DNA of 64,000 bases from Bremia lactucae (taxonomy: Eukaryota; Oomycota; Peronosporomycetes; Peronosporales; Peronosporaceae): the NCBI RefSeq assembly GCF_004359215.1, contig NC_090613.1, positions 6,127,092 to 6,191,091 of the forward strand, in the 5' to 3' direction. The translations under genes and the position numbers were made by a program. This document shows positions 1 through 64,000 of this stretch, in pieces (within the stretch, counting starts at the first letter, position 1; each line of letters opens with the position of its first letter). The notes beneath the pieces are model-generated. The model ran no database searches, had not been told where the DNA came from, and saw only the letters and a program-made list of their open reading frames with translations.

Positions 1-432
1 TTGTGGTGGGCGCGTTAGCGACCTCACCCAACACACTAAGAACTCTGGTTAAGTGTCGTCACGGGAGCAGTAATCCGTCTCCTCGTGCGCACTTACCAAG
101 TAGGAAGTAGTTTTCAGACTGATTTATATTTAATAGAATTAAATACGAAGACCTATTTTTACCAATTAAAATGATATCTCTATAGATAACATTTAATGTG
201 TATTGCGAGCGTATCTTTATAGATACCTCGCGTAACGGATGACGCTGGGCGTCATCCCTCCTAATGTGAATGCACCCATGTGCATCACATCCACAAGGGT
301 TGGTCACAAATGTGCACCACGCCCGAGTGTTGGGTCTAATTACTATTATTTAGTAATTAACCATCCTTTTTAATAACACCAAGTGTACTTAACGGGGACT
401 GTGTAACATAGGGGCAACTTTAGCCCGTCACA
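1..432 (-). repeat. Family A LTR (3' LTR of a minus-strand element), cut by window start
   Basis: This segment matches, in reverse complement, the 529-bp LTR at 56478-57006. It ends in the complement of the LTR start (TGTAACGGGC type, here with one change). The next ~110 bp also match the leader found beside other family A LTRs. The first ~100 bp of the LTR lie outside the window. It is read as the 3' LTR of a minus-strand A element whose body has been replaced by family C pol at about 543. Confidence 0.85.
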
Positions 433-540
433 CCACCCCCCTCTTTAAGAACGAATTTACATTTTTAAATTCGTCAAATAGGAGAGAGGAACTGCGAGCA
501 GCTTTACGCGCCGCTAGTTCACTCGATCACTCACAAGTAC
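433..540 (+). other. Remnant of the family A leader upstream of the antisense ORF
   Basis: It matches 63622-63745 and the reverse complement of 56346-56477, including the TTTACGCGCCGC block, then stops matching near 540. In other copies the MPPK antisense ORF begins just downstream. Here the ORF is absent and the sequence changes directly into family C reverse transcriptase. Confidence 0.7.
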
Positions 541-36776: not shown

Positions 36777-39036
36777 AGAAAAGAAGGAAAGATCCACAAA
36801 AAAGTCACACCAGTCCCAGAAGAGGACTTCGTTGACTGTTGCTCATCGTCCACAATGGACGAGAGCGTCCTAGAATATGACAAAAAGAAACGATTTGCTG
36901 CTCAAGGCTGGAATGCCTTGAGAGCCAGTCCGTTCTTTGAGGTTCTGTGGCAACATCGCGAGGTGTTCCCAGAAGAAGTGCCAAGCCGCCTACAAGCAGA
37001 TAGGGGCATCAGCCACGAATTTGACCTCGAACCTGGCATTAAGTATTGCGTGACCAGGCAGTGGCCATTGCCAAAAGAACAAGTCGATTATATCGATGAG
37101 ATTTACGACAAGCGAGCCAAGGCGGGATATGTCCGTGAGCGCAAGTCTCCTCACCGCAGCCCGACCTTTTGTGTGCGTAAAGCCACGGGTGGATGACGCG
37201 TAGTTCATGCTTTCAATAAGCTGAACACGGTTACCATACCGGCGCAAACGTCAATCCCACGGAAATATGTTTTTTTGAATGGCTATATCCGATAGGTTTT
37301 CAAAGTGCATTTTTCGTGGTGCACTCCATGGGAAGCAACTATCTTCTCCACGTTGGATTTAAAAGATGGTCACTATCAGGCGCTCATGAGAGAGTCCAAT
37401 ATAGCCAAAATGGCAATTAGCACTCCAAGCTCTATACTTTGGGAGTGACTTGTGATGCCCCAAGGTTTGAAAAGCGCACCAGCAACATTTAACCGAGTGG
37501 TGGCTCACGTGACGCGTCAGCACGTGCCTACGCGCCTCATTACTCTGACGATGTATTCGTGCATAGGAGGGCCGAGTACGGACTGAGCGTCATAGAGTCG
37601 CACAATCGTCATTTAGACGTTGTGTTGCAAACTCTGGAGAACGCCCAATTGTACGTCAACTTGCAAAAGCGCGTCAAAGGGGTCCCTGAGATACTTGTGC
37701 TGGGCTGCATCGTAGGTACATGGTGTACGAACAGACCCAGCTAAGATAAAATCAGTAAAGAAATGGCCAGTCCCACGACAAGTGAGGGATTTGCGTTGAT
37801 TCCTAGGGCTCGCTAATTTCTTGCATAAGTATAGCAAGAATTGTGCTGAGCAAACTAAACCATTATCTGACCTTCTAAAAAAGGATGCAGAGCGGGTTGG
37901 TCAAAGGAACAAGTAGATGAATTTAAAAAGGAGGAAAGCGATCTCTTGTAGAGGCACCGGTCTTGGCATTTCCAGACGCGGATAGGCATTTTAGCATCGT
38001 CTGCGATGCAAGTAATTTTGCAATCGGCAGCGCTCATGCAGGAGGATGATGACGGCGTTGATCGTGTCATCTCTTATCGGTCCCGGCTTTTGAAAGCCGC
38101 GGAACTAAATTCCCCTGTGCATGACAATTGCTACGTTCAATAAAATATGCTCTTGTCCATTTTAAGTGCACCGGTTGGGCACCGAACCATTTGTGGTTTA
38201 AATGGATTGCACATCACTGCGGACCGCAATAAAGTCACCGCACCCATGCCTAGAATGGCAAAATGGCTCGCATTCTTCCCTGAATTTAATTTCAAAGTTG
38301 AGTATAACCCGGGTAAGACGAATGTCTTGGCTGACGCTTTATCGCGCAGACCAGGCTTCGAGGTAAGATACCACGAGAATGCGTCTCGTGCTAAAGCACA
38401 AATTGAGTCGTCAACGTTGGCAGCCATAAAGGCATACCATGTGACGAACGCATTGGCCTCCGAAATAAAGGAGAGCTACCGTTACGACAAACATTGTCGC
38501 CTGCTGTTGGATCACTTTGGTGGACTAAAGGAAGTCTCTGCCGCACCTAATGGTTAAGCTTAATCGCTTTAGCTCAGCGATGGCCTATTATGGCATCAGC
38601 TGTCACCTTTTGATCCCTTGAGAATCTTTGTACAGATCTCAAGCTGATGATTCTTCACGAGCTCCATGATGCGCCATCAAGTGGGCATCTGGGCCGTGAT
38701 TAAGCATTCTTACGAGTGTCAGAGGAATTTTGGTGGCCACACCTATATCGTTAGGTGGCCAACTATATTCGCTCTTGCGAACAGTGTCAGTTTTGCTCAG
38801 CAGTGCGCCACTGAAGCCGCTACCAATCCCAAAGGATTGTTGGAAGTCAGTTAGTCTGGACTTTATGTTTGGCATGCCGCCTGACCATAAGGATTTGACG
38901 GGGCTTGTCGGCTTTGTAGACAGACTGATCAAGATGGTGCATTTCGTTAGCACCATGCAAAATATCGATCAAAGGTGAGAGGTAGTTCTCTTGTTCCTGG
39001 ATCATGTGTACCGACTACATCGTATCGGACCAGGTC
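36777..39036 (+). pseudogene. Element A1 pol: RT, RNase H and N-terminal integrase
   Basis: Pol begins in the protease-RT linker (SSTMDESVLEYDKKKRFAA) directly after the truncated LTR, so gag and protease are deleted. RT follows: PGIKYCVTRQWPLPKEQ, SPTFCVRKATGG, and the catalytic HYSDDVFVH block near 37540. RNase H is seen at 37975-38350 (AMQVILQSAALMQEDDDG; KVEYNPGKTNVLADALSRR). An open piece (38147-38557) runs into the integrase zinc region (LHDAPSSGHLG-like near 38655), and the core appears at 38840-39036 up to the IVSDRD block. Stops and shifts are present. Confidence 0.9.
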
Positions 39037-39745
39037 CTCGTTCGGAATAAACGAGTGCGTCGCTCCTAGAAGCGCTACTCTTAATGCTCATTAATTATTA
39101 TGACATCTATAATTTAAGGTAGGAAGAAAAATACTTAGTCGTGTTTCTTCGGTCCCGGTCGTGTTGCATTCGAGTAAATCAACCGACCATTACGAAGCGA
39201 AATTCCTGCGCCGCTTTCAGCCACATTCCGTTTCGGCGAAACAACAATCGCAGCGACTTAACTTCGCTCGCTTGCATGTGATCGAAATCATGCCGGTCTT
39301 GTACCCCCTGTTTCTTCTCATCATGCCGCTCTTGCTTGTCCATTCGGAATAAGCGGAGCGACAACTGGTGCTCCTTCTCATAGGCAGGCACCAGACTCAT
39401 TTTTTTACGTCGACGCGCAGGGCGTCAACCGGTTCCTACGATCCAAAACTCTTTGATTTCTTCTCCGCTGAACAAGGACTTTAAGCTTCTGCTGCACGGA
39501 GCGGTGGGCAACCAACCTTCCAACAAGGAAGCGTTAGTTCTCAGCAGCATCCATTAATGCAGATGGCGCGACAGGAGCGGCATTTTCACCCATATACTCG
39601 ATGCAGCCTATCCCATATCCGTTCAGTTGCAGGCATTGAGCGGTGCTGAACGACGGATCGGGGATCTCGAAAGTCAAGTCTCGTGACTGACTTCGGATCT
39701 CAACGATGTCCGCGCGAAGGATCGCCAGATTTATTTCCCCTTGAC
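39037..39745 (+). pseudogene. C-terminal half of the family A antisense ORF (A1, inside the inversion)
   Basis: Readable blocks are PGRVAFE-like near 39155, AKFLRRFQPHSVSAKQQSQR at 39193-39255, LNFARLHVIEIM, SSHHAALACPFG, and the coiled-coil segment AERRIGDLESQVS and LTSDLNDVRAKDRQ at 39650-39730, with one TGA between the last two. It overlaps the minus-strand chromodomain. The N-terminal half lies at 40769-41332 in the opposite direction because of the inversion. Confidence 0.65.
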
Positions 39746-40768
39746 CCTTTAGAAAAGCTGATACTGAAAAAAATCGCGTTATGCTTGCGCTTTTCCCCAC
39801 TCTCCAAATCCATATCGCGGTCGGATGAATAATTTGGCTGGAAGTCTTTCACCTTCCCCGTCTTCCTCAGCCGACCGACGCTCGACTCACAGTCGGCGTT
39901 ACCATCGTTTTTTTGTAAATGAAAGTATGCGATCTCTTCTGGGTCTACATATCGCTTGATACAACCCATGTAAAATACAGGGTGCGTCTTTATATACGGG
40001 GGAAGGGTGAGCTCATAATATAGATCTCTAACCTCTTCTACCACCGTAAAGGGCCCAATGAAATGAGGCAACAGCTTCGTAGTACCTCCAGGTAGCACAG
40101 AGATTGTATTTTAGGTAGAATAGCAGTACTTAATAAGACTTTGAAATCCACTCTAAAGCGTTCATTGTTTTTGCGACCATTTGGGTCCGCATATTTTTTT
40201 GCTTGTCCTGTGCGCTTGCCATTGCGTCACGGACTTTTTGTGTGATGGCTAAGCGCTCATCCACAAAGTGATGAGCCTTGCTCACGCTCTTAGCATCAAA
40301 CTCGCCTAGGACACCGCCGAGAGGTCAGTCATATGACGTAGTTTATCGACCACTGCTAAATTGGCAGGGTCACTAGGGCAAGTTTCTGTCGTTGAGATGA
40401 TACCCCTCGCGTGTCATCGTTATATTGACGAAACTATGTCCCTCTTTCGCACCGAGCATAGTGAGGGGCCCTCCCCCACTAAGTCTTGGCCTGCGCACAA
40501 CGAGACCGGCGTCCGAGGATGGCGCAGTCCGTTAATTAAAATCGGTGTCTCGCCCATCCTGGCATGGAGACTGTCATTTATCGCGATCTCCACGAAGGGC
40601 ATGCTTGCTCCATTCTTTGGAAGTCGCTACCCTACGCAATACCCGCCACGACTTGATTGACACGATTTTTTTGGCCATCGGTCTAGGAATGATCGGCTGT
40701 AGATATGTGGAGCTTGTTACCCAGCAGCTCACAAACACACGACGCCAAATATCCGACGCACAACGTGG
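39037..40768 (-). mobile_element. Inverted internal segment of element A1
   Basis: Relative to the pol upstream, this segment is flipped. On the minus strand it encodes, from right to left, the rest of the integrase core (from WRRVF at 40750), an integrase C-terminal domain (LLPHFIGPFTVVEEVRDL at 40075-40025; HPVFYMGCIKRYVD) and the chromodomain (39590-39360). On the plus strand, 39037-39740 holds the C-terminal half of the antisense ORF. The integrase sequence continues without loss across the two breakpoints (IVSDRD | PRF), and so does the antisense ORF, which shows a simple inversion of about 1.73 kb. Confidence 0.85.
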
Positions 40769-41332
40769 GCATTCGAATGGAGGTGAGATCGGTGGTAACC
40801 TAGCCACGCTCAATGCGACGGGCTTGTGACACCGACTCGACATGTTCACGTGTCGTCGGTGGAGCTTTAGCTCAAGCTTCCCGCGTCAGACCCATTGCGT
40901 ATGATGGTCTGAACGACATGTATTGTGGTTCTTCCTAATTGAAATGCAGCTGCACCTTTATGGGTAGCGCTCTCATGAATGGTCGCTGCGCTAGCTTTCG
41001 CAGACGACGAGACATTTGCTTTTGATGAAAGGCCAGTTGGCGTTCGCAACATCGTTCGTCTCCATGCTAGAAGCAATACGTGAAGTTTAAATGGGTACTA
41101 AAGCGCCATCATCCTTCCTCATTAGCTTGCTGTATTCATCACGACTATGAGATGATTGCAGCGTTGTTGACTCATTGTAGTAAACAATGAGCGACAGCAC
41201 CTTCAGTAGCTGTCAGCGTTGCAACTAAGGTACCAAGTGATGGCGGCGTTCTGTCGATGCGCGTGCGCTGGTGTGTTGTTATGGCGGTGTCTCCGTAGAC
41301 GACCCACCAGCTTTGCCACTCTTTGGTGCCAT
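40769..41332 (-). pseudogene. N-terminal half of the family A antisense ORF (A1)
   Basis: The ATG at 41332 opens MAPKSGKAGGSSTETP, matching the MPPKMGHGGGSSMKTP start of copy A5. Downstream blocks match 55760-56345: the N-E-S-A region near 40990, and ERTCRVGVTSP-like (RERAQSVSQA in other copies) near 40830. It is frame-broken and stops matching at the inversion border near 40769. Confidence 0.65.
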
Positions 41333-41479
41333 GTCAGGCGCCGCGTGATGACAAAACTGTGCATACATTGGTCGCTGAGAGTATTTGAGAGGACTAAAGC
41401 GCGCGTAAAACCTCTCGCAGTACCTCGTTCATTAGGGTGACATTGTATAAAATGCAAAATTCATTCTTAAAGAGGGTGG

Positions 41480-42005
41480 TGGTATAACGGGCTTAAGTTG
41501 CCCTATGTGACACAAACCGGTTAAGTTCACTTGATTTACTTAAGAAATGGTCTACTACTTCATGTGAAGTACTTTGACCTGCCACTCGAGTGAGGTTCAT
41601 ATAGTGACCCACCCTTGTGTATGTGATGCACATAGGTGCGTTCACATTGAAAGGGATGACGGCTAGCGTCATCCGTAAGCCGAAGTATTCAGAATAACAC
41701 GATCGCAAATAGGTGTGCACATCTACAGACGTGGCATCCATTGATTGGATAAAAGGCTTATATTTAAATCGATTTAATATAAATGTCTGAAAATTACTTC
41801 CTACTTGGTAAGTGCGCACGTGAAGCTGGATTCCCGCTTCCGTGACGACATTTGTACTCAGGTACTTAGTTCGTATGGTGAGGTCGCTTAGGCGCCCACC
41901 AATTACCCCACCGCACGTAAGAGAAGAATGTCGAACCGCTTCCTCGCTGTGCTTGAAGGTGTGTGCTTAAGTAATACGTGGCAGCTGTAGAAGCGCCCGC
42001 ATACA
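41480..42005 (+). repeat. Family A 3' LTR of element A1
   Basis: It starts TATAACGGGCTTAAGTTGCC (TGTAACGGGC with one change) and ends GCGCCCGCATACA. It is about 526 bp, in the same orientation as the split 5' LTR at 34927-36776. Confidence 0.88.
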
Positions 42006-43856: not shown

Positions 43857-44386
43857 TGTATGCGGGCACGTCATAATGCGGCCACGCTATACTTAAGCAC
43901 ACACCCTAGCACAGCGAGGAAGAGATTTGACCGTCTACTCTCGCGTGCAGTGATGTTGTTATGGTGGGCGCCTTAGCGACCTCACCCAACGCACTAAGTC
44001 CTTGGTATGCGTGTCGTCACGGAAGCGGTAATCCGGCTCCTCGTGCGCACTTACCAAGTAGGAAGTAGTTCTCAGACTGATTTAGATTAAAGCGCATTAA
44101 ATATAAATACCTACTTTTTACCAATCATAAAATATCATCTCTGTAGATAACACTAACATGCATTGCGAGCATATCTGGATATATCGCGTAACGGATGACG
44201 CTAGCCGTCATCCCCACTAATTTGAATGCCCTCTGTGGCATCACATACGCAAGGATGGGTCACAATGTGAGCCACACCCAAGTGTTAGGTCCAATTATAT
44301 TGCTTAAGTAGTTGACCATCCCCTTAAGTACACTTTGTGTGCTTAACGGGGACTATGTGATATTAGGGCAACTTAAGCCCGCTACA
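43857..44386 (-). repeat. Family A 3' LTR of element A2
   Basis: In plus reading it runs TGTATGCGGGCACGTC to AGCCCGCTACA (530 bp), the reverse of the plus-oriented A LTRs. Element A2 reads on the minus strand, so this is its 3' LTR. No 5' LTR is found at the other end near 50745. Confidence 0.9.
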
Positions 44387-44517
44387 CCATCCTCCTTTAA
44401 AACCAAATTTACATTTTAAATTCGTCAAAAAGGAACGAGAAATTGCGAGCTACTTTACGCGCCGCTTAGTTCTATCAGTCACTCTAGCGATCTGTGTCCA
44501 TATACACGGCGCCAAAG

Positions 44518-45720
44518 ATGCGACATAGAAGGGGCAACTTTGGTGGGTCGTCGCTGAGACACCCACTCAACCATGCGGGAAGCGCACGCGCCGCGTTGAC
44601 ACGCCCACCGTCGCCAGTGCCACATTTACAACCTCGACATCCACTGCTACTGTCGCTTTAACTGGGCTTAATGATCCATCCCACTTAAACAGTGAGGATG
44701 GCGATTAGTCGCTCGATGTCGCCTACAATGAGTCGACACCGTTGCCTTAATCTCATAGTAGAGATGTGGACAACGAGCTAATGAGGAAGGATGATGGCGC
44801 TATGTTGCCCATCCAAACTTCACTCATTGCTCCTAACATGGAGACAACAAAGTTTTCCAATGACGTCTTTTCGTCTGCGCTGGCTAGCGCAGCGACCATT
44901 AATGAGAGCTCTGCCCCTAAAGGCGCAGCTGCTTCTCCATTGGGTAAAACCACAACGGCTAATGCCCAGACCATTAGTCATGAAAAATTCTGACATAGCT
45001 GAACCTGAGCGTAAAGCTCCGCCGACGGCACGTGAACGTGCCCAGTCGGTGTCACAAGCCAATTGTTCCGAACGTGGCTATGTGACGGGTGGCATACCAC
45101 TTATGCTCCCTCCATCTCAATGGCCTCATGCCAATGGGCCGAGAGCATTGCTCCTAGAGCGAGCTACTGTAGACGCACGTCTTTATAATGGCGTCTATGA
45201 TGCATGGAACGCTTTAAGGAAATCGTTTGGTCGTATTTTCTCGATCCCGGTCGTGTTGCGTTCGAATGAAACGCCCGAATCAATACGAGGCGGGTTTCAC
45301 GCGCCGCAATCTGCATTTGGTCACCAAGCCGGGCACGTCAATCTGTAGGGTACCGATCGGTCACAAGAGTCGAAACTCTTCGAATAACCTCGCCATTGGA
45401 TGAAGATCTGATACCTTTGCCTCACAGAGCGGAGGGCAAGCAAACTTTCAACAAGAAAGCGTTCGTTCCCACCCGCATCCATCAGTGCAGGCGGTGCCCG
45501 ATAGGAGTGGTGATCTCGTCCGCCTACTCGCGGCTGTCTTACCTTCGTCCGTTCAATCGCAGGCAATAAAGGCTGCCGAAAGACTTATTGTGGATTTCGA
45601 GGGTCAAGTTTTGCGACTGACCTCGGATCTTTAGGAGTTCGCGCGAAGGATCGTAAGGGTTACGAACGCCTGTAACTTCAGCTTCACATCCTGGAGAAGT
45701 TGATGTAGAAGGACCCGCAT
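44518..45720 (+). pseudogene. Family A antisense ORF, copy A2 (broken)
   Basis: The ATG at 44518 is at the same place relative to the LTR as in A5, but the frame is lost early. From 44766 it is readable: NELMRKDDGAMLPIQTSLIA, NMETTKFSNDVF, APPTARERAQSVSQANCSER (45015-45075), LRSNETPES at 45258, then VPDRSGDLVRLLAAVLPSSV (45496-45555) and the coiled coil AERLIVDFEGQVLRLTSDL at 45575-45630. One base lost there shifts the frame to VRAKDRKGYERL. It converges on the minus-strand pol and overlaps the chromodomain. No known family is recognised. A basic N-terminus and coiled-coil C-terminus are the main features. Confidence 0.65.
45321..45600 (-). pseudogene. Element A2 chromodomain
   Basis: The minus frame includes RQPRVGGRDHHSYRAPPALM, GNERFLVESLLALRSV, YQIFIQWRGYSKSFDS and a C-terminal end like RVDVPGL, the chromodomain fold with its aromatic residues. 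It follows the integrase at the end of pol. The plus strand of the same segment is part of the antisense ORF. Confidence 0.85.
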
Positions 45721-47215: not shown

Positions 47216-48960
47216 AGCTTAACCATTAGGTGCGGCAGAGACTTCCTTTAGTCCACCAAAGTGATCCAACAGCAGGCGACAATGTTTGTCGTAACGGTAG
47301 CTCTCCTTTATTTCGGAGGCCAATGCGTTCGTCACATGGTATGCCTTTATGGCTGCCAACGTTGACGACTCAATTTGTGCTTTAGCACGAGACGCATTCT
47401 CGTGGTATCTTACCTCGAAGCCTGGTCTGCGCGATAAAGCGTGAGCCAAGACATTCGTCTTACCCGGGTTATACTCAACTTTGAAATTAAATTCAGGGAA
47501 GAATGTGAGCCATTTTGCCATTCTAGGCATGGGTGCGGTGACTTTATTGCGTTCCGCAGTGATGTGCGATCCGTTTAAACCACAAATGGTTCGGTGCTTA
47601 ACCGGTGCACTTAAAAATGGACAAGAGCATACTTTATTGAACGTAGCTCTTGTCATGCACAGGGGAATTTAGTTCCGCGGCTTTCAAAAGCCGGGACCGA
47701 TAAGAGATGACACGATCAACGCCGTCATCATCCTCCTGCATGAGCGCTGCCGATTGCAAAATTACTTGCATCGCAGACGATGCTAAATGCCTATCCGCGT
47801 CTCGAAATGCCAAGACCGGTGCCTCTACAAGAGATTGCTTTCCTCCTTTAAATTCATCTACTTGTTCCTTTGACCAACCCGTTCTGCATCCTTTTTTAGG
47901 AGGTCAGATAATGGTTTAGTTTGCTCAGCACAAATCTCGCTATACTTATGCAAGAAATTAGCGAGCCCTAGGAATCAACGCAAATCCCTCACTTGTCGTG
48001 GGACTGGCCATTTCTTTACTGGTTTTACCTTAGCTGGGTCTGTTCGTACACCATGTACCTACGATGCAGCCCAGCACAAGTATCTCAGGGACTTCTTTGA
48101 CGCGCTTTTGCAAGTTGACGTACAATTGGGCGTTCTCCAGAGTTTGCAACACCGCGTCTAAATGACGATTGTGCGACTCTATGGCGCTCAGTCCGTACTC
48201 GGCCCTCCTATGCACGAATACATCGTCAGAGTAATGAGGCGCGTAGGCACGTGCTGACGCGTCACGTGAGCCACCACTCGGTTGAATGTTGCTGGTGCGC
48301 TTTTCAAACCTTGGGGCATCACAAGTCACTCCCAAAGTATAGAGCTTGGAGTGCTAACTGCCATTTTGGCTATATTGGACTCTCTCATGAGCGCCTGATA
48401 GTGACCATCTTTTAAATCCAACGTGGAGAAGATAGTTGCTTCGCATGGAGTGCACCACGAAAAATGCACTTAGAAAACCTATCGGATATAGCCATTCAAA
48501 AAAACATCTTTCCGTGGGATTGGCGTTTGCGCCGGTATGGTAGCCGTGTTCAGCTTATTAAAAGCATGAACTACGCGTCATCCATCCGTGGCTTTACGCA
48601 CACAAAAGGTCGGGCTGCGGTAAGGAGACTTGCGCTCACGGACATATCCCGCCTTGGCTCGCTTGTCGTAAATCTCATCGATATAATCGACTTGTTTTTT
48701 GGCAATGGCCATTGCCTGGTCACACAATACTTAATGCCAGGTTCGAGGTCAAATTCGTGGCTGATGCCCCTATCTGCTTGTAGGGGGCTTGGCACTTCTT
48801 CTGGGAACACCTCGCGATGTTGCCACAGAACCTCAAAGAACGGACTGGCTCTCAAGGCATTCCAGCCTTGAGCAGCAAATCGTTTCTTTTTGTCAGATTC
48901 TAGGACGCTCTTGTCCATTGTGGACGACAAGCAACAGTCCACGAAGTCCTCTTTCTGGAA
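47216..48960 (-). pseudogene. Element A2 RT and RNase H
   Basis: RT is at 48940-48020: PGIKYCVTRQWPLPKNK, SPTFCV-like, and the YSDDVFVHRRAEYGL block near 48230-48190 with the catalytic DD. RNase H and the linker are at 47900-47219 (ASDFAIGSAHAGG-like; FKVEYNPGKTNVLAHALSRR; ENASRAKAQIESSTLAAIKA). The 47219-47656 piece is open for 145 codons and differs little from 38147-38557 in A1, so A1 and A2 are close relatives. Confidence 0.9.
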
Positions 48961-51193: not shown

Positions 51194-51264
51194 ACTTTTT
51201 TGTACCATCGACGCTCGTTGAATTTCTTGGCGACTAATTTTTAAAGAGGCCTTGTCGAGGTGAC

Positions 51265-52120
51265 ATGGCGTGGGTTACTGATAATGTTGGCTACATTGCG
51301 TGGCTGGTGCCAATTATTGGCATTTGTACCATGTTTGGGACCGAAGTACTCGCCTGTTTGTACCATTTTACATGTTCCAAGAACTACCCAACACTGTCGT
51401 ATGCGGCTACGTTCAAACCAGAGGCTTATGTCTTTACAAGCGGTATGAGCCTCACAGCTCTTTGCATCTTGGTATCGGTCTTGCTCTTCTTCTGGTACCT
51501 CCAGATTCATCATAACGAGCATAAGAGCACACCAGACAATACAGTGGCAGCAAAGGTCTATCTTGGCTTTGGCGTCACGTCAGCTTTCTCGCTCTTTGGA
51601 CTTGCGGTCATGGACATGCGCTATCATCATGTTGCGCATCTATGGTTTACCATTGTTTTCTTTCTCTCGACATGGGTCATGTTACTGACAGCACAGCTTG
51701 TCAGGAAGCGCATTTTGCAATTCGAAAATTGTGACAATTTGGCTTTGACACGCCGTCCATTCACCGTCTTACGTCAACAATCCTTCTGGCGTGTTTTGTG
51801 TCGTTCAAGAAGACTCGATAACGTTACAGCATACGTTTTGGGTCATTTGTTCGTGTGTACTGGCTTGGCGTCGACGCTATTGTGTACGTTGCTCTTATTT
51901 TGTTCTTTTGTCGTCATTTTAATTGCTCTCTTTAGTTGCTATCTTTTTCCTCTGCGCAAATGATATGTGGCCAAACCCACTTGGATTGACAGCGCTTCAA
52001 GAAGCCTTTTTTGAAGCGCTCGCGATCGTGTGTCAGCTATTTTTCATGGGTACGTTATCGTGTGAGTTAGCGCAACTTCATCAACGTGAAGAATTTAAAA
52101 ACAATGCAATAAAGGTGTAA
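51265..52120 (+). CDS. Frag1/DRAM/Sfk1-family membrane protein
   Basis: Two exons (51265-51883 and 51936-52120) joined through a 52-bp GT-AG intron give 267 residues. The protein is mainly hydrophobic, with about six membrane segments, for example AWLVPIIGICTMFGTEVL, LTALCILVSVLLFFWYL, FSLFGLAVMD and LWFTIVFFLSTWVMLLTAQL. The order and the FKPEAYVF region after the first segment fit the Frag1/DRAM/Sfk1 family, known for roles in autophagy induction and GPI-anchor or lipid handling. The function here is unknown. The second exon ends with a short polar tail, HQREEFKNNAIKV. It is convergent with KTI12, whose stop lies 39 bp away. Confidence 0.82.
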
Positions 52121-52159: not shown

Positions 52160-53120
52160 TTACCCCTGCTGGTTCAAATATTCAATAAAATGGTCTCCGA
52201 TTGTAGCGACTACGCAGGGTCTCATGCACGTGATCTTAATAAATTGACGACGGTGACGTCGAGCCTCCGCAATGGACAATGGACGACTGATGCGAAGCTC
52301 GTTCTTGACACTATGCGGTGGCACTCGCACGCCGTCAGCGACCCCAACATCGTGTTGGTGAGTCATTAAGGCTGTTACAATAGCATTGGTTGTGTCTTCC
52401 AAAGCCTGGAGGAAACTCGTTTCTGCAGTAAGTGGCGCTTTAGTTGCCAGACCGGCCTTGATTGTCTTTCCAAATCGTATTGCCTCCGTTATTGCATCTA
52501 AAGGTAGCCCAGTACCATCTTTTTGGTATTCATCTGGAGTTAGTCGAAAAAGAGGACGATCCCACCGATTCTTGGCCATCGGAACCTCAAATCGAGCTGC
52601 GAGCTCGTTCAACAGCTTCGATTCTAAGCCATGGGCTATCGCTGCATTGCGTTCGAGAGCTTTTTGTACGGGTGTGTCTATATAGACCTATCACAATGTT
52701 CTTGATACACATCATTGCAAGCTTGAGATAATTTAACGTACCACGCAGTACGTTGTGTTCTCTGCTTTGGCAATGCAAAAAAGTTCGTATCTTTCGCCCT
52801 TGGTGTAATTCAGTGCATCGAGCACTACGATCGTTTGAGAATTTACTGCTTTCTCGACTGCAGCTTTCAATGCACTTCGAGTATTTTTCTCTGCTCTACT
52901 ATCTGCATTCATACATTGGTTTAAATAAAGACCAAAAGTCAAGCCATTAAATCCGTCTAGTCGTACCAGCGTATCCCTTCGTCTTGTCCACATTGACGGA
53001 AGCCGGCGAAATGCACGTGACTTCTTGGTCCGGCAATAATTGCAATAAATGGTCGATTAATTTTGTAGTTACAATTGTCTTGCCAGCCGATGGGATCCCG
53101 CACACGACGACAAGGGGCAT
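52160..53120 (-). CDS. KTI12: KTI12 (Elongator-associated P-loop protein)
   Basis: KTI12 is a P-loop ATPase related to PSTK that regulates the Elongator complex, which makes wobble-uridine modifications on tRNA. Three exons, 53120-52967, 52902-52742 and 52687-52160, with introns of 64 and 54 bp, give 280 residues (yeast 313, human 354). The Walker A motif GIPSAGKT is at residues 8-15. Joining exons gives KGYADSRAEKNTRSALKAAV, then IVVLDALNYTKGERYELFC, and in the last exon RFEVP..KNRWDRPLF and RRHRRQFIKIT, all family hallmarks. The ATG at 53120 is preferred since it yields the MPLVVVCG start; an in-frame ATG at 53135 lies in retroelement-derived sequence. Confidence 0.95.
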
Positions 53121-53176
53121 GATGCAGTGCACCACGAAAAACGCACCTAGGAAGTCTATCGGATATAGCCATATGT
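53121..53176 (-). mobile_element. Family A pol (RT) fragment abutting the KTI12 start codon
   Basis: GTGCACCACGAAAAACGCACCTAGGAAGTCTATCGGATATAGCCAT in the plus strand matches 48450-48493 in the A2 RT with few differences. It begins one base upstream of the preferred KTI12 ATG and continues to about 53173. No LTR or other element sequence flanks it. Confidence 0.75.
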
Positions 53177-54155
53177 CAAAAGTATCTGGATTAAGTGTAC
53201 TCGATGTTTTAATTAGAAAGAAATTATATCCAATTCTTCAAGTTATCAGTGTCCAAACATAGTAAATATTTACTATAATTGGGCAATAAAAATACTCTAT
53301 AAGTCAGCAATACTTTTTCGATAACCAAAACCTTATAATTTTTAATATTTTAGCTTTCTTCCATCATTAGATAATAATTAAGCTTATAAAATGTAGTACA
53401 ATTAGCTCTTTATAATTATCTTCTATATTAAGTACTGTTATTAAATTTTTGATTAAATATATAATAAGCAAAATGTACATCTATAAAACGCTCAGAGATA
53501 ATTTAATACATGACTTTATTATTCAAGATTAATAAAAATATATATATCATTGTTTTTATACATGACATATCAATCTAGCCTTCTCCGTGACTTGGCAGCT
53601 ACGATACATCAAAAATCTGTTTTCAATCTACATCTGGGCATTTTGACAAATAAAAGAAATTTTCCAGTGCCAAATTTTCGTCATTTTCATGGCTGATGTC
53701 GCATGACGGACATCGACCCGAAGGTACCGCATTCTGAGAGGTCATACGTCGTCAGAAGGTATGATCAAAAATTTCTAGTTTTCCCCCTCCTACTATTTAA
53801 GACCACTTTTTTGGTAAATGACCTTGGGTACTTTTGGATTGTTTTTGAGTTTGTCCATGTACAATAAAGCTCAACAGAAGTAGCAGTAGGTGTGTTTTCT
53901 ATCTAAATAATCATGACCTTTGATTTCCAAAATACTTAAGATTTACGCTGCGTATAGCTAAAGTGACAGTTACGAGCGAGATGTCGCCACGTTACAAATA
54001 TATTCCGACAAGAAAAATTAATGTACGGCAATTTAATTACATGCAACTTTAAATCGAGACTGAATATTAAAAAAGTTGCATAAAATGCAACAATATTCAT
54101 ATATGTATGCAATAAGACACTAACATCCTAGGATACAATTTCTAGTGATTTTTAT
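53177..54155. other. AT-rich intergenic stretch between KTI12 and the F-box gene
   Basis: The two genes are divergent, so both promoters should be in here. I see no long open frame and no repeat matched elsewhere. No promoter element could be assigned. Confidence 0.5.
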
Positions 54156-55135
54156 ATGGAATTGCTGCCACTTGCCTTGCAGCGTGAGATCTGCTCTTTC
54201 ACAGCAGCAACCGAGCTCATACCTCAGGAAATTGATGCGTTTCTTGACAACCACCGGGTCAGAAACTTCGCAACGCACTTCACCGAGCCGTCCGCGTCCA
54301 ATCTCCAGCGTCTGGCGCGTGTGTGTCGCAACTGGCGAGACATCGTCAAGACACTGTGTGCAGAACATGAGGCTTCGCGCGTACTAACAATCCGATTTAC
54401 AACAGGTCACGAGCTTCAACAGCAAAAGCAAATTATTAAGCGCTTGGCTACTAATGAACAGGGCTTTGCGGTTTTGGATTTGAGAATTATTTTGACAATC
54501 GAAAAGAGACGACTATGGTGGGACTTGGACCCCGAGACACAGAATACTAATGAAGAAATTGTTGCAGGTATTAATCATTTTCAAACGATCGACTGGGGCT
54601 TAATATTTGCGCTTTGTCCAAATCTACAACGACTGGACTTATCAGGAATGCCACTCCACCACTTGGCACTACGGAACGTGCTCGATAAATCGTCAAAAAC
54701 TTGCAAACACTTGGAAGCGTTGATTCTACCCAAGCGAGACAAAGAGCTTGAAAATACACGAGCGGACATAAATGGTCGGGTATTTTGTGCTTTGCATATG
54801 GCATTACACAGATGGAAAATAGCGTCCGAAGGAAAGGGATTGCGGCAATTGACCGTGCCATCTTGGAGACAATTTGATCTGAATCATAAGTCGAATGAAT
54901 ATCTTACCATGGTAAGGATAACGTGTCCAAATTTAGAGTATCTAGATGGATGGAAACGTTTGTACAGTGAAGGAACGAATTTCGTGACGTCTGAAGAAAG
55001 TCTACGTGTGTCTTTAGTTGTGTGGCAGAAATTTTGCGCCTCTTGTCTTGCATTGAGAGAATTTAGCTGGATTATTGTGCCATTCTCAGACGATTTTTTT
55101 CTCTCATTTGGCCACGCTGTGAAGCCATTTCTAAC
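54156..55135 (+). CDS. F-box-like leucine-rich protein, 3' end missing
   Basis: Open from ATG 54156 for about 326 codons until an undetermined base at 55136, after which retroelement sequence follows. The first ~70 residues look like an F-box: MELLPLALQREICSF, then SNLQRLARVCRNWRDIVKTL. Residues about 150-330 hold leucine-rich-repeat-like segments (LCPNLQRLDLSGMPL, TCKHLEALILP, TCPNLEYLDGW, ALREFSWIIVPF). F-box proteins recruit substrates to SCF ubiquitin ligases; the substrate is unknown. The C-terminus is absent in this assembly, either by transposon insertion or by a scaffold join at the N. Confidence 0.68.
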
Positions 55136-55136
55136 N
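55136..55136. other. Undetermined base (N) at the F-box/retroelement border
   Basis: A single N lies exactly where coding sequence of the F-box gene changes into family A element sequence. This may mark an uncertain assembly join. Confidence 0.99.
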
Positions 55137-56345
55137 CTCGAGATCCGCAATACGTCGTTCAGCAGCATGCGACTGAACGGACGAAGGTAAGGCAGCCGCG
55201 ATTAGGTGGGCGAGATCGCCGCTCCTATCGGGCGCCACCGGCACTAATGGATGCGGGTGGGAATCAACGCTTCCTTGTTGGAAGGTTGCTTGCCCACCGC
55301 TCCGTGACGCAAGGGTACCAGATCCTCGTCCAATGGAAAGGTTACCCGAAGAGTTTTGACTCTTGGGAACCGATCGATACCCTACGTATTGATGTGCCCG
55401 GCTTGGTTGCTGCCTATGAAAAGGAGCACCAGCTGAGGCCACTTCGCTAGTCTCAAATGGACTAGCAGAAGCAGCGTAGTGAGAAGAAACAGGGGGTACA
55501 GTACCACCCATGATTTCTTTCACACGCAAACGGGCGAAATTAATTCGCTGCGACCGCTGTTTCATCACATCGGAATGTGGTTGAATGCGGCGCAGAAATT
55601 CCGCCTCGTATTGGTCGGGCGTTTCATTTGAACGCAACACGACCGGGAAAATACGCCCAAGCAATTTTCCCTGAGCCCTCCATGATTGAAAGACGCCATA
55701 ATAGTTGTGTGCGTCTAGAAGAGCGCTCTAGGAGCGACGCTCTTGGCCCGTCTAAACGAGGCCATTTAGATGGAGGGGGCATCTTTGGAATGCCACCCGT
55801 CACATAGCCGCGTTCTAAACGACTGGCTTGTGACACCGACTGAGCACGTTCACGTGTCGTCGGCGGAGCTTTAGGCTCCGAATCCTCACTGTCAGAACCA
55901 TTATGAATTATGGTCTGAGCATAAGGCGTTGTGGTAATACCCAACGGAGAAGCAGCTGCGATTTTATGGGCAGCGCTCTCATTACCTGTTGATGGGACAG
56001 CATTCGTAAACGATGCTGTCTCCATGTTGTGAGCCATGAGAGACGTTTGGATGGGCAACAATGCCGCATCATCACTCTTTATGAGCTCGTTGTCCGCATC
56101 ACTACTATGAGGTGACGGCAACGGTGTCGACTCATTGTAGTCGACAATGAGCGACGGATCAACATCCTCACTGTTAAAGTGGGATGGATCCTTTAGCCCT
56201 GTTAACGCGACAGCCGCAGTGGCTGTCTGCGTTCCGACTAAGGCATTTGACGCGGCCGGCGAATTAACGCGGCGCGTGCGCTTAGTGCGAGGTGAGTGGG
56301 CGTCTTCGCAGACGACCCACCAACGTGGCCCCTTTTAGGTGGCAT
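55137..56345 (-). pseudogene. Family A antisense ORF, copy A3 (two frameshifts, otherwise long and open)
   Basis: The ATG at 56345 opens MPPKRGHVGGSS; one missing base near codon 18 shifts the frame. From 56121 it reads MPSPHSSDADNELIKSDDAA, NMETASFTNAVPSTGNESAA, APPTTRERAQSVSQASRLER. After a second shift near 55664 come VVLRSNETPDQYEAEFLRRI and QPHSDVMKQRSQRINFARLR, then 100 further codons open across the antisense of the chromodomain, ending RSGDLAHLIAAALPSSVQSH and AERRIADLE at the N. Unknown function; N-terminal basic segment, disordered Ser/Ala middle and C-terminal coiled coil. Intact apart from the two shifts. Confidence 0.7.
55145..55450 (+). pseudogene. Element A3 chromodomain
   Basis: The plus frame at 55199-55450 reads RQPRLGGRDRRSYRAPPALM, GNQRFLVGRLLAHRSV, YQILVQWKGYPKSFDSWEP and DVPGLVAAYEKEHQLRPLR then a stop. 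It is the best-preserved family A chromodomain in the window. Upstream pol is absent, because the F-box gene or the assembly break lies at 55136. Confidence 0.88.
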
Positions 56346-56477: not shown

Positions 56478-57006
56478 TGTAACGGGCTAGAGTTGCCCTA
56501 ATGTTACACAGTCCCCATTAAGTACATTTGTTGTACTTAAGGGGATGGTCAATTACTAATAATAGTAATTAGACCCAACACTCGGGTATGGTGCACATTT
56601 GTGACCAACCCTTGTGGATGTGATGCACATGGGTGCATTCACATTAGGAGGGATGACGCCCAGCGTCATCCGTTACGCGAGGTATCTAGAAAGATACGCT
56701 CGCAATACATATTAAATGATATATATAAAGATAACTTTTAATTGGTAAAAATAGGTATTTGTATTTAATTCTATTAAATATAAATCAGTCTGAAAACTAC
56801 TTCCTACTTGGTAAGTGCGCACGAGGAGACGGATTACCGCTCCCGTGACGACACTTAACCAGAGTTCTTAGTGTGTTGGGTGAGGACGCTAACGCGCCCA
56901 CCACAACTGCCTCACTGCACGCAAGAGAAGCAAGTTTAACCTCTTCCTCGCTGTGCTAGGGTGTGTCTAAGTAGAGCGTGGCCGCATTACGACGTGCCCG
57001 CCTACA
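56478..57006 (+). repeat. Family A 3' LTR of element A3
   Basis: It runs TGTAACGGGCTAGAGTTGCC to GACGTGCCCGCCTACA, 529 bp, with perfect TG...CA ends and short terminal inverted repeats (TGTA...TACA). It is the reference copy for family A used here. Confidence 0.92.
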
Positions 57007-63753: not shown

Positions 63754-64000
63754 ATGCCACCTAAAATGGGCCACGGTGGTGGGTCGTCTATGAAGACGCC
63801 CACTCAACCTCACACTAAGCGCAAACGCCGCGTCAACTCGCCGGCCGCGTCCAATGCCTTAGTCGAAATGCCGATAGCCACTGCTGCTGTCGTGTCAATG
63901 GGGCTAAAGGATCCATCCCAATTTAACAGTGAGAATGCTGATCCGTCGCTCATTGTCGACTACATTGAGTCGACTAAAATGTGTCGACATCGTTGCCGTC
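63754..64000 (+). CDS. Family A antisense ORF, copy A5 (open to the window end)
   Basis: The ATG at 63754, 132 bp inside the LTR, opens an uninterrupted frame of 82 codons to the window edge: MPPKMGHGGGSSMKTPTQPH, then TKRKRRVNSPAASN with a basic NLS-like KRKRR, followed by SMGLKDPSQFNSENADPSLI and VDYIEST. Compared with A3 and A2 this copy retains the frame at the point where they are shifted. A short duplication follows IEST (AAAATGTGTCGAC). The function is unknown. Confidence 0.6.
   Translation, partial: MPPKMGHGGGSSMKTPTQPHTKRKRRVNSPAASNALVEMPIATAAVVSMGLKDPSQFNSENADPSLIVDYIESTKMCRHRCR

Follow-up and report, generated by a model that had tools for sequence, protein, structure and literature searches.

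A probable protein-coding antisense accessory gene overlapping the end of pol in a Ty3/Gypsy retrotransposon family of downy mildews

Background

Antisense accessory genes have so far been reported from the LTR elements of plants and of Botrytis/Sclerotinia, and from retroviruses. Their role in retrotransposons is considered an open question (PMC7264820). The plant genes, termed aORF-3R, include Grande gene23, RIRE2, the Retand TRP28/Smc ORFs and PvRetro13; they are described as lying antisense between pol and the 3' LTR and as being kept across species, the Grande protein is reported to be nuclear, and the Retand and PvRetro13 ORFs match Smc, which is of the coiled-coil type (PMC7264820, PMC11963269). 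The region between pol and the 3' LTR of Retand measures 2.9-6.6 kb, and the main text describing it does not use the word overlap (PMC11963269). The brtn gene of Boty from Botrytis cinerea, likened here by description only, is likewise an extra gene on the antisense strand of a Gypsy element, its bearer being a filamentous microbe (PMC7264820, PMC8365987). In HTLV-1, HBZ is an antisense gene beside the 3' LTR whose nuclear, bZIP-bearing product is reported to lower viral expression (PMC10186651). Among oomycetes, Gypsy elements account for 58.6% of the contig sequence of Bremia lactucae (PMC6570648), and the Chronos elements are Gypsy retrotransposons with a chromodomain behind the integrase and a second, archaeal-type RNase H; the main text of the Chronos paper does not mention antisense (PMC5348765). 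No report of an antisense retrotransposon ORF in oomycetes was found in a literature search that missed most subscription literature, so that one may exist.

We analyzed such an ORF in a stretch of 64,000 nucleotides of B. lactucae (the window; NC_090613.1, positions 6,127,092 to 6,191,091). Like the plant aORF-3R genes, it reads against gag-pol in the interval from pol to the 3' LTR; in addition, it overlaps the end of pol. As in the plant elements, it recurs in many family copies and in several species (genome copies; proteins of Peronospora effusa and P. farinosa). It differs from them in having no match to TRP28 (the transposase 28 domain, PF04195), Smc or any other Pfam family, and from Retand, a non-chromovirus lineage, in that it enters pol. 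With HBZ it shares the position of an antisense gene beside the 3' LTR; however, the predicted protein is a long helix without a bZIP match, and the hosts are different. In its presumed mode of action it most resembles the antisense accessory ORFs of Grande/Retand and Boty, or HBZ, although no homology to any of these antisense products was found. We consider it highly probable (about 0.88) that the ORF is a genuine protein-coding accessory gene of the retrotransposon, with the final ~190 codons overprinting the linker and chromodomain of pol; a working accessory gene is more probable than chance because relatives among the downy mildews have conserved the protein. Oomycetes would thus add an independent lineage to those known to carry antisense accessory genes, and the overlap would be an unusually clear example, within a cellular genome, of coding regions that overlap in antisense.

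The antisense ORF and its setting in copy A3

The initial annotation had placed an ORF that adjoins the 3' LTR and reads against pol in an element copy termed A3, where it is indeed present in the following setting (window coordinates).

55137..56345, minus strand: antisense accessory ORF of A3, with at least two frameshifts and truncated at the N at 55136
55450..56345, minus strand: part of the A3 antisense ORF past the pol stop, approximately codons 1-300, with the N-terminus and conserved core
55259..55450, plus strand: chromodomain of A3, which forms the C-terminus of pol and lies opposite the ORF (Pfam stretch 55277-55423)
55137..55258, plus strand: leftover of the A3 pol linker, antisense to the ORF; the remaining pol is absent from A3
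56478..57006, plus strand: A3 3' LTR, beginning with TGTAACGGG behind a purine-rich tract and matching the A2 LTR; edges approximate

The start codon is the ATG at 56345 on the minus strand and, as the 3' LTR spans ~56478-57006, it lies about 130 bp from the LTR. The protein motifs quoted earlier were recovered in two frameshift-separated frames of 236 aa (55624-56334) and 198 aa (55131-55727). The chromodomain said to lie opposite the ORF is real (PF00385, E = 1.2e-9 in a Pfam scan), and the overlap reaches further than first described, since the ORF also lies opposite the integrase-chromodomain linker and the full gene has 493 codons. The A3 copy stops at 55136, the sole N in the window. At this N the truncated copy is joined to an F-box-like frame (54132-55136; PF00646, E = 6e-4, just under the cut-off), and the junction could reflect an assembly join or a host gene that has been truncated. 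At the start of the window (1-440) lies another LTR fragment, which shares 94% identity with the A3 LTR and points the opposite way.

Copies in the window and across the genome

Three of the four copies originally listed, A2, A3 and A5, were borne out (A2 and A5 by blastn/tblastn), and the fourth, A1, had to be corrected to a rearranged composite, because the C- and N-terminal parts of its ORF sit on opposite strands (matches at 39113-39671 on the plus strand and 41194-40764 on the minus strand, respectively).

44518..45720, plus strand: antisense ORF of A2, decayed by stops and frameshifts
45321..45584, minus strand: chromodomain region of A2 pol, decayed and without a Pfam match
43857..44392, minus strand: A2 3' LTR
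63754..64000, plus strand: start of the A5 antisense ORF, open up to the window end
39054..39671, plus strand: C-terminal part of the antisense ORF in the rearranged copy A1
40764..41332, minus strand: N-terminal part of the A1 antisense ORF, on the strand opposite to the C-terminal part

A2 represents an old lineage, with approximately 80-83% identity to its nearest matches. The A1 region (36820-41483) has plus-strand pol pieces abutting oppositely oriented antisense-ORF and pol pieces, an inside-out rearrangement.

Searching the genome (115.9 Mb, 220 contigs) with the A3-region DNA returned at least 45 matches, 40 candidates having been scored out of 2,535 at first look. Of these 45 matches, 35 (query included) span no fewer than 1,120 of the 1,209 bases. 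Protein queries returned at least 95 and at least 92 matches. Intact relatives found elsewhere are 480-493 codons long. In one copy (L044/L049) the antisense frame is open for all 493 codons, from the MPPK start to the SR-rich tail, and its pol frame has a stop inside the overlap; in another (L070) both frames are open across 190 codons. Among 58 genome copies chosen by similarity, not at random, the whole antisense frame is open in one, and in three more it is open as far as the sequence is readable.

The elements that carry the ORF form a Ty3/Gypsy LTR retrotransposon family of downy mildews and bear a chromodomain; for this family the chromovirus label is unproven and membership in Chronos is not claimed. 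The chromodomain stands at the pol C-terminus both in A3 and in the pol homologue P0039 (PF00385), and a GPY/F-type integrase C-terminal domain (PF24626) was identified in P0039, aligned to copy L070. RT_RNaseH_2 was found in an A2 piece (47634-47903), and no RNase_H family was detected at E up to 0.01 in ten pol-region pieces, which are broken and cover pol in part. In A1, judging from the ORF list, only ~480 nt seem to separate the end of the gypsy RNase H from the integrase core. The family resembles Chronos in its chromodomain behind the integrase but may differ from it, as the second RNase H of Chronos was not detected in the pieces scanned.

Anatomy of the gene and predicted protein

The 493-codon ORF has ~302 codons beyond pol, 62 codons (303-364) opposite the chromodomain and 129 codons (365-493) opposite the linker of ~130 residues that joins the GPY/F-type domain of the integrase to the chromodomain. 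Pol codon positions 1, 2 and 3 stand opposite antisense positions 1, 3 and 2, respectively. The protein is predicted to combine a helical core with a coiled coil of ~70 residues and to be disordered at its ends: an AlphaFold2 model built with 32 homologues has helices at residues 190-269 and a single long helix at 365-435, with the coiled coil predicted at high confidence. Mean pLDDT in 10-residue blocks reaches 97 and is mostly below 50 outside the helices, the model as a whole being mostly disordered (mean pLDDT 55.7, pTM 0.25). S, R and P are abundant in the final 60 residues. No Pfam family matched the protein at E up to 1, and no significant match was found among PDB sequences; Foldseek returned 3 matches from PDB and 30 from BFVD at E up to 10, but not one at E <= 0.001, and a search of IMG/VR viral contigs with the protein alignment gave 41 pattern matches and zero relatives.

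Conservation between genera and the overlap with pol

Coding sequence in general often has an open antisense frame opposite it, and the frame described here could accordingly be a by-product, held open by the conserved pol opposite it, with an unselected flank and no protein made. Conservation in other downy mildews argues against this explanation. In searches scored among the ~8,000 candidates sharing most words, a single sequence retrieved at least 15 homologues and a profile at least 36. The oomycete relatives that the initial annotation had proposed to seek are therefore at hand: an organism name is attached to 12 of the 36, all Peronospora effusa except for one P. farinosa, and these are 38-53% identical to the query. 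The conserved core is 58-60% identical between B. lactucae and the homologues P0006, P0007 and P0008, and all 27 invariant columns of a 16-sequence alignment fall in codons 157-299, outside pol, although invariant columns are hardly possible in the C-terminal part because several homologues are truncated there.

The overlap is itself common to different genera. For 11 pol C-terminal proteins and separately retrieved antisense proteins, we asked whether one DNA can encode both. P. effusa P0045 (pol) and P0007 (antisense) are compatible over 54 consecutive residues in the observed phase, P0044 and P0006 over 63, and P0039 and P0008 over 30, compared with longest compatible runs of 11 (60 shuffles) and 13 (200 shuffles) in controls; most remaining pairs gave short runs, as expected of different copies. 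Runs in the wrong phases reached 34, and 17 at most once P0009 was set aside, the longer ones arising because its frameshifted tail reads antisense to the integrase C-terminus in another phase. In four of five pairs, including B. lactucae, the last antisense residue stands opposite pol YVDP plus 13 residues; in the fifth it is YVDP plus 12. When paired with P0008, the distant pol homologues P0046 (469 aa, from an ENA contig of 6,977 bases) and P0048 (from Lagenidium giganteum) were compatible over 8 and 10 residues, which does not exceed chance; the DNA of these two could help to establish when the overprinted gene arose.

In the linker (codons 401-493), antisense identity between genera is 57-66% (P0006, P0007, P0008), with 58% for P0010 and 45% for P0009 with its frameshifted tail, and pol identity is 31-49% (P0038, P0039, P0041, P0044, P0045), the pol and antisense rows coming mostly from different copies. 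Pol is thus the less conserved frame in the linker, which counts against the by-product explanation. In the chromodomain, pol identity is 59-65% (P0038, P0039), 41% in the distant P0046 and 19-24% in P0041 and P0044, both of which change frame there, and antisense identity is 40-52%. The division between the two frames is plainer in this comparison of genera than in the branch counts given below.

Selection on the antisense frame

Antisense stops are also fewer than synonymous permutation allows if the frame were a by-product. In three pol pieces, which are related copies and hence not independent, 1, 0 and 0 antisense stops were seen versus 5.5, 4.8 and 5.0 expected under synonymous permutation (P = 0.0076, 0.0016 and 0.002; with resampled synonymous codons, P = 0.029, 0.0076 and 0.0016).

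We estimated dN/dS from parsimony counts on tree branches against a trinucleotide-matched null. Besides the 58 genome copies, the 65 rows of the tree included A2, A3 and five additional copies; the rearranged A1 and the short A5 were omitted. Single-copy branches mostly record how dead copies decayed, and on them the antisense frame evolves neutrally (0.99, n = 2,597). Where a branch has at least three descendants, dN/dS is 0.59 for the whole ORF (n = 153; 0 of 2,000 randomisations). For the linker it is 0.54 (n = 68, P = 0.001), against 1.58 in the pol frame of the same stretch, and for the part outside pol 0.70 (n = 78, P = 0.049), which is a modest signal. With at least two descendants, the values are 0.77 for the whole ORF (P = 0.015), 0.84 outside pol (P = 0.19) and 0.74 in the linker (P = 0.0135). 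The power of the test is limited, as selection is not clearly seen in a positive control, a pol-only stretch (0.90, P = 0.32, on shared branches). An earlier run with 60 rows was stronger (0.58 outside pol, 0.48 in the linker); with the five extra copies and the trinucleotide-matched null, the outside-pol value on branches with at least three descendants rose from 0.58 to 0.70, and the whole-ORF and linker signals survived. Constraint in the linker falls on the antisense frame, not on pol.

In the chromodomain no antisense constraint is visible (dN/dS 1.63 and 1.97, n = 7 and 23 changes), a point in favor of the by-product explanation, and the pol frame there is about 1; a hint of pol constraint in the smaller run (0.30, n = 10) disappeared in the larger one (1.06, n = 7). 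Outside the overlap, the frame that has the third positions of the ORF gave 0.76 (P = 0.049; 0.57 in the smaller run). These common third positions explain the apparent constraint on alternative frames, and no frame lacking them showed any. The codon-level constraint anticipated for the antisense strand is accordingly present in the ORF as a whole and in the linker, modest outside pol and lacking within the chromodomain. Taken with the conservation between genera, these results largely refute the by-product explanation, to which we give only a very small chance.

Other explanations and possible function

Slightly less credible still is that the antisense RNA matters and not a protein, with dsRNA formed with the genomic RNA feeding silencing and the open frame incidental. 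Such a role has been proposed for antisense ORFs in general (PMC7264820), and Gypsy elements of Phytophthora infestans are reported to have sense and antisense small RNAs along them (PMC3522703); however, neither the amino-acid-level conservation between genera nor an antisense-frame dN/dS below 1 is expected of an RNA. The two roles could coexist. It is equally improbable that the ORF is a passenger, either a host gene picked up by the element or another element that inserted in reverse orientation, for although LTR elements are known to capture genes (PMC7264820), the protein has no Pfam, PDB-sequence or fold match, none of the 36 homologues is recognizable as a host or other gene (so that the misplaced fragment of another gene considered in the initial annotation finds no counterpart), and the interlocked overlap with pol has one phase and register common to different genera; an ancient capture, now beyond recognition, may nevertheless lie behind codons 1-302.

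If the ORF is a protein-coding accessory gene, a nuclear regulatory role is conceivable on the basis of its anatomy and of analogy, at somewhat less than even odds. The antisense RNA would start in or beside the 3' LTR. The protein would enter the nucleus by means of a KRTRR-like basic stretch and may associate with itself through the coiled coil, and its basic N-terminus and SR-like tail may bind nucleic acid or chromatin. It might then exert control over the RNA or the pre-integration complex of the element itself, in line with proposals for Grande gene23, the Retand TRP28 proteins and HBZ. In a fuller version, which we offer tentatively, the gene is dual-coded, with selection acting on the antisense frame in the linker (where pol would be the by-product) and the roles swapped in the chromodomain, and its product is an HBZ-like regulator of the element. 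The protein would then be a candidate for controlling the type of element with which downy mildew genomes are filled.

Other frames in the window

Two further protein matches lie between A2 and A3. A frame of 241 aa (51238-51963) that adjoins the A2 element matches the Frag1/DRAM/Sfk1 family of membrane proteins (PF10277, E = 5e-12). On the minus strand at 52160-53237, a KTI12 chromatin-associated protein is found in pieces (PF08433, E = 1e-28 and 1.5e-7), its fragmentation possibly reflecting introns or decay.
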